Part shown: piece after piece, positions 20,274-35,635 of the stretch | How the letters are laid out: the number at the start of each line of letters is the position of its first letter | Position numbering within the stretch: position 1 is the first letter of the stretch | Source of the DNA: Sulfurimonas sp. | Lineage (GTDB): Bacteria > Campylobacterota > Campylobacteria > Campylobacterales > Sulfurimonadaceae | Direction of reading: 5' to 3' | Assembly (NCBI RefSeq): GCF_026988655.1 | Contig: NZ_JALSKT010000041.1 | Coordinates: forward strand, 1 to 51,384 | Length of the DNA stretch: 51,384 nucleotides | Notes under the pieces: generated by a model | Seen by the model: only the letters and a program-made list of their open reading frames with translations | Database searches by the model: none | Told to the model about the DNA's origin: nothing | Made by a program: the position numbers and the translations under genes

Positions 20274-20289
20274 TGTTTCACGTGGAACA
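20274..20289. other. parS: parS site 1 (ParB binding)
   Basis: TGTTTCACGTGGAACA is identical to the canonical bacterial chromosomal parS (its complement is TGTTCCACGTGAAACA). It lies in the hisF promoter region, 25 bases upstream of a TATAAT at 20314-20319. ParB spreading from here could affect hisF expression. Confidence 0.9.
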
Positions 20290-22799: not shown

Positions 22800-22815
22800 A
22801 TAACAAAGCTAGGAG

Positions 22816-22821
22816 TATAAT
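22816..22821 (+). promoter_or_regulatory. -10 box of the 32-aa microprotein gene
   Basis: TATAAT followed by ACGC, 28 bases before the ATG at 22850, with AGGAAAA as ribosome binding site. This gives the small gene its own predicted promoter. Confidence 0.5.
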
Positions 22822-22849
22822 ACGCTTCTATCAAAAATCAAGGAAAATT

Positions 22850-22948
22850 ATGAGCGGTGTAGACATATCGGAAATTATTTTGTTAGTTATTGTATTTGTA
22901 GTTGGTGTTGGTGGTTTTATCTGGGCTGCCACTAAAGAAGAAAACTAG
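22850..22948 (+). CDS. 32-residue single-helix membrane microprotein
   Basis: The peptide starts MSGVDISEIILLVIVFVVGV, continues GGFIWAATKEEN and stops. It has a ribosome binding site AGGAAAA at ideal spacing and a TATAAT promoter. One hydrophobic helix (about residues 8-27) is flanked by an acidic N-terminus and a charged tail, so it should be a bitopic inner membrane peptide. Size and layout recall small subunits of respiratory complexes such as CcoQ-like peptides, but there is no sequence evidence for that. It is too short for routine gene callers. Confidence 0.6.
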   Translation: MSGVDISEIILLVIVFVVGVGGFIWAATKEEN

Positions 22949-23316
22949 AGTCAAGACGATCAACACACCAGGGAGATCGTCTATGAATGAAATAATACCC
23001 TACTAATCTTAAAAAAATATATTTATCCTCAAATAATTCCAATCACAAATAAACTACAAGTAATCTAAATATCTCTCCATAAATACTTACTATTCACACA
23101 TTGTTCTAAAGTGTGAATATACTTTCAATACTAAGACAATAAATTATTAAATTTATTTAAATTTTAAGAAATTTTTAATATAAATATAGACTTAAAAATA
23201 AATTATATTTTACTTAAAGCCCTATATTCAGGGCTTTCATCGACTATTCACTTTTTATTCACAATTCTTAAAATAAAAAATTATCAAATTTAAAAGTTAT
23301 TCACATATGTGTCTAA
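22949..23316. other. AT-rich intergenic region with a remote DnaA-box cluster
   Basis: A 368-base gene-free stretch. It contains DnaA-box-like nonamers at 23090-23098 (CTATTCACA), 23112-23120 (ATATTCACA, minus strand), 23244-23252 (CTATTCACT), 23255-23263 (TTATTCACA) and 23297-23305 (TTATTCACA). The first two form a perfect inverted repeat TATTCACAC/GTGTGAATA. Between the clusters, 23130-23215 is almost pure A/T. A 20-base segment (23292-23311) with the last box is identical to one upstream of dnaA (34040-34059). A perfect hairpin lies at 23216-23237. It may be a DnaA reservoir, a regulatory locus or an origin accessory element. Confidence 0.6.
23216..23237. terminator. Perfect 8-bp hairpin in the DnaA-box region
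   Basis: AAAGCCCT, loop ATATTC, AGGGCTTT. It may terminate the microprotein transcript or the convergent rluA-type gene. The following bases are only moderately T-rich on either strand. Confidence 0.45.
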
Positions 23317-24228
23317 CTATATAGCTAAAGATGAAAAACAAACTTTTTCAAAATCAACTTTACTTTTAATATTGTAAGTATGCCCATAAAGTTCAAACTC
23401 TAGTTCACTAGCATGTAACAATAATCTTTTAGCACCGGAGAATTCTATCCTCTCCTGTGGCGTTAAAGACTTATCTAAAAAACGAATCATCTTCTCTTCG
23501 CTTTGTCCATAAATAGGGTCACCAACTATAGGATGTTTCACGTGGAACAAATGTACCCTTATCTGATGTTGTCTTCCAGTGTGAGGAGAACACTCTATAA
23601 GACTCATATCTAACTCAGGAAAATATTTTAGCGGTTTGAAGTCTGTTTTAGAGGATTTCCCTCTTTGATCCACTTTCACAACCATACGAACAACTGCACT
23701 ATCATCTTGTGCTCTCAAAATAGGCTCATCCACACACAAGTCATTTTCAAATTTTCCGTGAACGAATGCAAGATATTTTTTTTTCATTTCACGTTCTTGA
23801 AACATCATTTTGATATCTCTTTCACTTTTTTTATTTTTAGCACATAAGACTAAGCCACTTGTTTCTTGATCAATTCTATGTGCAATGTTTGCATCACGTC
23901 CAAATTGAAACTTCAGCTCATCAATCAAAGAGTAGGGTGTACGTTTTGTTTGAGGATGAATCAACACACCACTAGGTTTATCAAATACAACAAATTCTTC
24001 TTCTATAAATGTAGGCTCTAAACCTTTCGTAATTGGCTCAAAAAATATAAACTCAAACTCACCCTCAACTTCACCAGCGGTCTTGAGCATCTTCTCGCCA
24101 TTTACAAGGACTCTTCCTTTTGATATGAAACGTTGGGCTTCTTTTTGCGTATACCCTAACTCGTTTATAAAATATATAAAAGCTTTCTGTCTCTTTTGTA
24201 CAAACATTTTTTTTATTACAAATGGCAA
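23317..24228 (-). CDS. RluA-family 23S/tRNA pseudouridine synthase with S4 domain
   Basis: A 303-residue protein. An N-terminal S4 RNA-binding domain (about 15-65: FINELGYTQKEAQRFISKGRVLVNGEKM) precedes a pseudouridine synthase domain with the catalytic aspartate in NIAHRIDQETSGLVLCAK and the later SLIECSPHTGRQHQIRVHLFHVKHPIVGDPIYG. It isomerises uridine in rRNA or tRNA; the exact site cannot be told. The start is TTG at 24228 because GAGGA lies eight bases ahead; an ATG at 24207 lacks one. A canonical parS site lies within the coding sequence. Confidence 0.88.
   Translation of the reverse strand: MPFVIKKMFVQKRQKAFIYFINELGYTQKEAQRFISKGRVLVNGEKMLKTAGEVEGEFEFIFFEPITKGLEPTFIEEEFVVFDKPSGVLIHPQTKRTPYSLIDELKFQFGRDANIAHRIDQETSGLVLCAKNKKSERDIKMMFQEREMKKKYLAFVHGKFENDLCVDEPILRAQDDSAVVRMVVKVDQRGKSSKTDFKPLKYFPELDMSLIECSPHTGRQHQIRVHLFHVKHPIVGDPIYGQSEEKMIRFLDKSLTPQERIEFSGAKRLLLHASELEFELYGHTYNIKSKVDFEKVCFSSLAI
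23534..23549. other. parS: parS site 2 (inside the rluA-type gene)
   Basis: A second exact TGTTTCACGTGGAACA, 3.26 kb from site 1. It encodes part of FHVKHP in the pseudouridine synthase, so the parS sequence is tolerated within a conserved coding region. Two exact 16-mers in a few kilobases cannot be chance. Confidence 0.92.
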
Positions 24229-34035: not shown

Positions 34036-34153
34036 TAAAAAAAGTTATTCACATATGTGACAAGGGAGTTATTCACATATTTTTAACCCTATCTTATGGT
34101 TATTCAGTGTATTATTCACATATAATTTAAAAAATAAGGTTTTATGTGAATAT
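34036..34153. other. oriC: oriC part 1: DnaA boxes upstream of dnaA
   Basis: DnaA-box nonamers TTATTCACA at 34045-34053, 34069-34077 and 34112-34120, the variant TTATTCAGT at 34100-34108, and an inverted ATATTCACA (34145-34153, minus strand) overlapping the dnaA GTG start. A TATAAT directly follows the 34112 box at 34121-34126 and is the probable dnaA -10 box, so DnaA can autoregulate. The palindrome TCACATATGTGA occurs at the first box. Boxes upstream and downstream of dnaA match the bipartite origins described in Helicobacter and relatives. Confidence 0.8.
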
Positions 34154-35453
34154 AGGTCAAGAAGTTTTACAAGCGCTCAAAGATGAAATAACTGAACTCG
34201 AATATAACAGATATATCAAGTATCTCACTTACGACGCGAAAAAATCAACAAGTGACAGAGCAATATTTTATGCACCCAATGCTTTAGTGGTAAATTGGAT
34301 TAAAAATAAGTACAATGATAAACTAGCACACCTTTTTGAAATTAAAAGCGGTTCAAAAGTTTCCATACTTATAACACTCAAAAACAAAGTGGAAACAAAA
34401 AAAGCGAAAAAAGTCACAGAGATCAAACAAACAAGCTCACTCTTAAATCCATCACACTCATTTGACAACTTTATGGTAGGTGGATCAAATCAATTTGCTT
34501 ATGCAGCAGTGAAAAGTGTCAGTGAAAATGCAGGAAAAGTTTATAATCCTCTTTTTATTTATGGAGGTGTTGGACTTGGTAAAACACACCTTATGCAAGC
34601 TGCTGGAAATGTTTTTCAAAATGAAGGTAAAGTAGTTATCTACACCTCTGTTGAACAATTTTTAAATGATTTCATTCGTCATGTTCGTAACAAAACAATG
34701 GAACGCTTTCAAGAAAAATATCGTAAGTGTGATGTTTTACTTATTGATGATATTCAATTTTTAAGTAATAAAGAGGGGATTCAAGAAGAATTTTTCCATA
34801 CTTTTGAAGCACTCAAAGGTGCTGGAAAACAGATTATACTTACAGCAGATAAACATCCTAAAAAAATAGGTGGTCTTGAAGCACGCCTGCAAAGTCGCTT
34901 TGAGTGGGGTCTTGTTGCCGATATTCAACCACCCGAACTTGAAACAAAAATAGCCATCATCAAGAAAAAATGTGAAATAAATAAAGTAAGATTAAATGAA
35001 GACATTGTAAATTACATCGCAACCGTTATAGACTCTAATGTTCGTGAAATAGAAGGAATTCTCTCAAAACTTCATGCTTATTCCCAACTTATGCATGTTG
35101 ACATTGACCTTGAGTTTACAAAAAATGTTCTTAAAGATCAAATGAATGAAAATAGAGCCAATCTCACAATGGAAATCATCACAGAAGTGGTCGCAAAAGA
35201 TTTAAATATCAAACCAAGTGAGATCCGTTCAAAAGGACGTAGTAAAAATATCGTTTATGCTAGACGTATATGCATCTATATTTGTCGTGAATTAACGCAA
35301 AATACAATGCCACAACTTGCACAATACTTCGGTATGAAAGACCATACAGCAATTTCACATACTATTAAAAAAATAAATAATCTTATAAAAGATGATGAAG
35401 ACTTTAGAGTAAAAATCGAAGAATTGACAAACAAAATAAGTTCGAGTTCTTAG
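34146..35453 (+). CDS. dnaA: Chromosomal replication initiator DnaA
   Basis: A 435-residue AAA+ initiator. Domain I is the first ~85 residues, then a short linker, NFMVGGSNQFAYAAVKSV, Walker A YGGVGLGKTHLMQAAGN, Walker B DVLLIDDIQFL, the sensor and box VII region GGLEARLQSRFEWGL, and the domain IV DNA-binding helix-turn-helix with MKDHTAISHTIKKI. The start is GTG at 34146 after ATAAGG. It is flanked by DnaA boxes on both sides and followed by dnaN and gyrB, a classic origin arrangement. Confidence 0.97.
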   Translation: MNIGQEVLQALKDEITELEYNRYIKYLTYDAKKSTSDRAIFYAPNALVVNWIKNKYNDKLAHLFEIKSGSKVSILITLKNKVETKKAKKVTEIKQTSSLLNPSHSFDNFMVGGSNQFAYAAVKSVSENAGKVYNPLFIYGGVGLGKTHLMQAAGNVFQNEGKVVIYTSVEQFLNDFIRHVRNKTMERFQEKYRKCDVLLIDDIQFLSNKEGIQEEFFHTFEALKGAGKQIILTADKHPKKIGGLEARLQSRFEWGLVADIQPPELETKIAIIKKKCEINKVRLNEDIVNYIATVIDSNVREIEGILSKLHAYSQLMHVDIDLEFTKNVLKDQMNENRANLTMEIITEVVAKDLNIKPSEIRSKGRSKNIVYARRICIYICRELTQNTMPQLAQYFGMKDHTAISHTIKKINNLIKDDEDFRVKIEELTNKISSSS

Positions 35454-35635
35454 TTTCTTCTAAAAAAATTAAAAAAAAAGATATAATTGTGAAAGTGAAT
35501 AGATGTGAATGAAAGCAAAAGAGTTCATCACATCAATACAAGAGCTAGTCTAGGGCATTTAAAGAATATTTTCACTTATTCACATGCACCTACTACTACT
35601 TACTAAAATTATATAAATATATAGGGATTTAAAAG
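35454..35635. other. oriC: oriC part 2: AT-rich stretch and DnaA boxes downstream of dnaA
   Basis: Immediately after dnaA, an A-rich run (35460-35488) resembles a DNA unwinding element. It is followed by box-like sequences: AGTGAATAG (35494-35502, minus-strand CTATTCACT), TGTGAATGA (35504-35512, minus-strand TCATTCACA), TTCATCACA (35524-35532) and TTATTCACA (35576-35584). In Helicobacter pylori the unwinding site is in this downstream part. The dnaN leader follows. Confidence 0.72.

Follow-up and report, generated by a model that had tools for sequence, protein, structure and literature searches.

A conserved DnaA-box element between the two parS sites of a Sulfurimonas chromosome and its possible role in coupling replication initiation to segregation

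A conserved element of DnaA boxes lies between the only two exact parS sites of a Sulfurimonas genome. We tentatively read it, with a chance that we put close to even, as a DnaA-binding module of the Sulfurimonadaceae centromere that would couple replication initiation to chromosome segregation. The window, i.e., the whole stretch of 51,384 nucleotides that was analyzed, is contig 41 of a 1.97-Mb draft genome. It is still an open question how bacteria coordinate the timing of segregation with replication initiation, and very few of them are known to have direct contact between initiator and centromere. Our searches of open-access papers that paired Sulfurimonas or Campylobacter with parS brought up no description of such an element.

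Five DnaA-box-like nonamers with an exact TTCAC core are found between positions 23090 and 23305, about 11 kb upstream of dnaA. Two of them form an inverted pair, with CTATTCACA (23090 to 23098, plus strand) as the left arm and ATATTCACA (23112 to 23120, minus strand) as the right arm, separated by an asymmetric, conserved spacer, CATTGTTCTAAAG (23099 to 23111, plus strand). The pair includes a perfect 8-bp inverted repeat (23091 to 23098 and 23112 to 23119). The other three nonamers are on the plus strand: CTATTCACT (23244 to 23252), which is mostly peculiar to the window genome; TTATTCACA (23255 to 23263), found near position +165 in a subset of relatives; and again TTATTCACA (23297 to 23305), the third conserved box. 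The last is contained in a 20-mer (23292 to 23311) identical to one at oriC1, upstream of dnaA (34040 to 34059). Five nonamers around an A/T stretch in a gene-free region, a perfect inverted repeat of two boxes, and a shared 20-base segment had all been described in the initial annotation, and all three observations were borne out. When the intergenic region was dinucleotide-shuffled 5,000 times, no shuffle reached five boxes (mean, 0.29; maximum, 3), and the densest 230-bp box stretches in the window are the element and oriC1. Judging from their sequence, the five nonamers are probably sites at which DnaA, the protein that starts replication, binds, and the cluster is real and distinct from oriC, as originally proposed.

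An A+T-rich stretch follows the inverted pair (23121 to 23218; 91% A+T, compared to 71 to 91% in the corresponding stretch of the orthologs). Positions 23133 to 23207 reach 93% A+T, the most AT-rich 75 bp of the window begin at 23138, and a conserved AT block with the consensus TTTAAGAAnnnnTTTATATAAA occupies 23164 to 23184. A partly conserved hairpin, AAAGCCC-TATATTCA-GGGCTTT (23216 to 23237), could be read from the sequence; its C/G positions are kept in the alignment, and it is probably the terminator of a converging gene. The region of the element is free of genes and convergent, with rlmN and a 32-aa open reading frame (ORF) coming from the left and the gene for an RluA-family pseudouridine synthase from the right, so that the box sites control no promoter of either neighbor.

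Exact matches to the parS sequence (TGTTNCACRTGNAACA) occur exactly twice in the whole genome and flank the element. Both read TGTTTCACGTGGAACA; one begins at 20274 (20274 to 20289), upstream of hisF, and the other at 23534 (23534 to 23549), inside the RluA-family gene. The parB gene is single-copy and far from the element. Since the only two exact parS sites lie on either side of the element, we regard the locus as the chromosomal centromere and the element as part of it; exact parS 16-mers near the origin, together with a parB gene, are what characterizes a parS centromere locus. As in a DnaA-bound centromere of the Caulobacter type, DnaA-box-like sites, here predicted ones, are present in the parS region. 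In 85 of 87 orthologs, parS follows the inverted repeat on its 3′ side at a distance of 192 to 745 bp. Most Sulfurimonas relatives examined carry one exact parS site about 3 to 4 kb away on the rlmN-hisF side and one 0.2 to 0.75 kb away on the other side, and in complete relatives such sites are essentially limited to the locus of the element. The initial annotation had missed the flanking parS sites, as well as a covarying hairpin just upstream of the element, and this overlooked context, with parS on both sides, favors a centromere role.

Within Sulfurimonas, the element is found 7 to 14 kb upstream of dnaA. In genus g13 (genome G091) it is inverted and 5.7 kb from dnaA, and the parS sites accompany it. 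Extra DNA separates it from parS, about 2 kb away, in genera g4 to g6 and g17, and tight adjacency of element and parS is therefore dispensable. The link between the two could also be inherited gene order, which we count against a coupling role. At the g17 loci L301, L099, and L100, the inverted repeat is separated from the parS-bearing rluA-family gene by an inserted gene of about 573 aa, and the AT block and the third box have seemingly been lost.

Across the genus, the inverted box pair TATTCACACATTGTTCTAANNTGTGAATA is a single-copy sequence, and it is also present in seven related genera. With up to two mismatches, 48 of 60 genus members had the motif TATTCACACANTGNTCTAANNTGTGAATA, each in one copy, and control matches numbered zero. 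With three mismatches, it was found in g7, g13, and g17 as well as in all 18 genus members included in an order-wide sample. Inspection of genomes without a match revealed a three-mismatch copy, an assembly gap inside the repeat, a contig end, and an apparently rearranged contig (one genome each). When 84,980 species genomes were scanned with a pattern that differed slightly, 68 loci were returned, and the titles of all of them were Sulfurimonas, Sulfuricurvum, or unresolved bins of related bacteria. Near parS, g4, g5, and g6 have diverged copies that keep the arm spacing, and the diverged copy in g15 has a spacer shorter by one base. The element is absent from the g16 genomes and the other families sampled. 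At the parS loci of the other Campylobacterota families sampled there are no such boxes and no general enrichment of DnaA boxes, so that such coupling is not general in the order. The element is thus kept throughout the genus and in most sampled genera of the family, and the conservation in relatives on which the initial reading was to be judged has been found.

We then compared the architecture over up to 96 unique orthologs. The TTCAC core (GTGAA in the right arm) is invariant in both arms in 85 of 85 orthologs. TTCAC is the published core of the Epsilonproteobacterial DnaA box, the first positions of which are degenerate in Sulfurimonas denitrificans (PMC5043019). Variation at arm positions 1, 2, and 8 amounts to 22 alignment cells, and not one compensated pair was found among the 85 orthologs. 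An invariant core with uncompensated variation of the outer bases fits two independent DnaA boxes rather than an RNA hairpin. The two paired boxes have mean pairwise identities of 0.98 and 0.96; the third box reaches 0.92 (0.924) and the AT block 0.85, compared to 0.49 (0.487) for the remaining region and 0.39 for fourfold sites of rlmN. In the spacer, TG, the second T, and TAA are nearly invariant, and its mean pairwise identity is 0.785 versus 0.487 for the rest of the region. Spacings are also fixed: in 73 of 78 orthologs, 93 to 94 bp separate the end of the AT block from the point where the inverted repeat starts, and the third box (GTTATTCACA) lies 204 to 213 bp from the repeat in 74 of 83. 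Helical phasing of the boxes is not claimed, since the main peak of the third-box distances spans a full turn.

The repeat might instead form the RNA hairpin of a small transcript, a very improbable reading that its inverted symmetry and the genuine covarying hairpin nearby would suggest. However, compensatory changes were absent from the 85 orthologs despite the varying outer arm positions, on which grounds we rejected it, and promoter-like matches were not above those in shuffles. The nearby hairpin, GACGATC-AACACACCAGGGA-GATCGTC (22955 to 22981), is a conserved companion of the element. Its 13-nt loop is nearly invariant in 89 orthologs, its stem carries double (compensatory) changes at five pairs, and it is followed by a conserved TAATAATACC. 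It is also present in g4, g5, g6, and g15, and a search of Rfam matched it to no known RNA family. Its distances to the repeat display a weak phasing near 10.6 bp (P of about 0.03 to 0.05). A conserved micro-ORF after this hairpin (MNVIIPY) was considered and dropped because many species lack its start codon and have stops interrupting it. On its other side, the 32-aa ORF (22850 to 22948) encodes a predicted membrane protein, MSGVDISEIILLVIVFVVGVGGFIWAATKEEN, that is retained after rlmN in relatives and weakly resembles CcoM (E value of 5e-4, below the cut-off). In many relatives, an ORF of about 77 aa (MAEKTDADRIKEIYKLCKNHFGDVRFVGVKYHNKIGWIAKAQL...) is present between the 32-aa ORF and the hairpin; the window is without it (22800 to 22955).

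The element could be an auxiliary or third origin part ("oriC3") that would help to load DnaA or would itself be unwound. This quite unlikely reading is supported by the DnaA boxes beside the stretch of the window richest in A+T and by the nearby GC-skew switch. The window also has a canonical origin, with oriC1 boxes upstream of dnaA (34045 to 34154), which fits the published ruvC-dnaA location (PMC5043019), and oriC2 between dnaA and dnaN (35495 to 35605), where a textbook DnaA-trio, CTACTACTACTTACTA (35590 to 35605), directly follows the boxes and is kept in most relatives. An oriC has a DnaA box followed by a DnaA-trio and an AT-rich unwinding element, and this order was not found at the element. 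The trio score in the window is 1 at the element versus 4 at oriC2; it is at least 3 at oriC2 in 15 of 17 genomes and ranges from 1 to 3, never reaching 4, in orthologs of the element. The published DUE of S. denitrificans is likewise located in dnaA-dnaN, where DnaA-dependent unwinding was shown in vitro (PMC5043019). With the DnaA-trio sitting between dnaA and dnaN, the element is unlikely to be the site of origin unwinding.

GC skew was calculated as plain and fourfold skew in three genomes and as third-position skew in ten. The switch falls between the element and dnaN, and skew does not separate the element from dnaA-dnaN. In genome G031 (L124-L143), from 13 kb upstream to 9 kb downstream of dnaA, the plus-strand fourfold skew turns from negative to positive at the element and not at dnaA, as an origin part there would predict; minus-strand genes have no such turn at the element. 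Pooled skews of the genes between the element and dnaA are intermediate or left-like, which argues against an origin part and leaves skew ambiguous on an origin at the element. The initial annotation had also offered a relic of a moved origin. While the cluster and its conservation stood, this part of the interpretation did not, given the strong purifying selection on the element and the canonical oriC1-dnaA-oriC2 with its DnaA-trio nearby.

Genome G146 (2,201,561 bp), which we take to be S. denitrificans DSM 1251, carries the element at 2188235 to 2188454. According to PMC5043019, an extra "oriC3" predicted in this species gave no DnaA binding by EMSA; this may be the same site, so that the negative EMSA may concern the element itself, which would speak against coupling. 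The repeat might instead be bound by another protein, e.g., a dedicated centromere or chromosome-organizing factor with a DnaA-box-like half-site. Besides this possible negative EMSA, the conserved asymmetric spacer CATTGTTCTAA, unexplained by DnaA boxes alone, and the single special site per genome are consistent with such a factor. It is nonetheless improbable, as the invariant core is the known DnaA core and a third, unpaired box in the region has a 20-mer in common with oriC1. We also rejected an operator of a regulon: there is essentially one such repeat per genome and no operator set, and TTCACA-N13-TGTGAA at one mismatch was around or below the control level outside the element.

A DnaA module that couples initiation to segregation is favored by the two only parS sites flanking it, the single-copy repeat, the invariant TTCAC core, the fixed spacings, and the high identity of the boxes, along with the convergent genes, one repeat per genome, the single-copy parB, and the precedent in Caulobacter. 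In this module, DnaA would occupy the two facing boxes of the inverted pair and, together with DnaA at the third box, could fold the AT-rich segment of about 210 bp into one nucleoprotein complex beside ParB-parS. Through this complex, the abundance or nucleotide state of DnaA would act on the centromere, and movement or release of parS might thereby begin together with initiation at oriC; the ParB complex may also act back on DnaA. A bolder version, which we consider possible but doubtful, is that Sulfurimonadaceae have a dedicated composite centromere in which the fixed DnaA-box module, the conserved hairpin, and the paired parS sites would work as one nucleoprotein machine timing segregation by DnaA activity. 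This would be a second, independently evolved initiator-centromere coupling, with a cis-element defined to the base pair. The element is compact, well delimited, and deeply conserved, and with cultured members in the genus the question can be tested by small deletions.

Among known systems, E. coli datA and DARS1/DARS2 are also noncoding DnaA-box clusters outside oriC. datA consists of DnaA boxes and an IHF site and promotes DnaA-ATP hydrolysis. By analogy, the element may control DnaA activity in the manner of datA, DARS, or a titration cluster, with bound DnaA being hydrolyzed, recharged, or sequestered to set the frequency of initiation, and its proximity to parS being incidental or serving early duplication. 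We hold this to be somewhat unlikely. It would account for several strong boxes and extra conserved sequence outside oriC, and for a position very close to oriC, which implies duplication at once after initiation. In our scan of the bioD-uvrB gap, however, E. coli DARS1 has three closely spaced boxes in the order + − −, with starts 14 and 12 bp apart, whereas the two boxes of the + − pair in the element start 22 bp from each other, and no third box adjoins them. By its geometry it is not a DARS core, and a functional analogy is possible. It also has few boxes for titration relative to oriC, and its location between the sole two parS sites is left unexplained by this alternative. The E. coli clusters differ from the element in adjoining no parS; to our knowledge, the E. 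coli chromosome is without a ParABS-parS centromere.

The element shares TTCAC-core boxes and an AT-rich stretch with the Epsilonproteobacterial bipartite oriC (oriC1/oriC2; PMC5043019), but it is about 11 kb away, lacks a DnaA-trio, and has no known unwinding. The rctA/parS2 region of Vibrio cholerae chromosome II is a centromere that also binds a replication initiator, as the element may do; there, the initiator is RctB, which is unrelated to DnaA, and the effect on replication is by titration (PMC6399470). The closest likeness to the proposed coupling module is the parS centromere of Caulobacter crescentus, which has DnaA boxes at parS, distinct from yet near the origin, in the account of Mera et al. 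2014 given by PMC6399470 and PMC6667618. As summarized in the former, DnaA bound to the parS region of Caulobacter promotes partitioning when its levels are too low for replication initiation. Binding and function were demonstrated in Caulobacter, whereas for Sulfurimonas both are predicted. The Sulfurimonas module also differs in its fixed inverted pair, spacer, AT block, and third box, kept family-wide between two parS sites in an unrelated class, and it offers a second lineage for comparison with Caulobacter.
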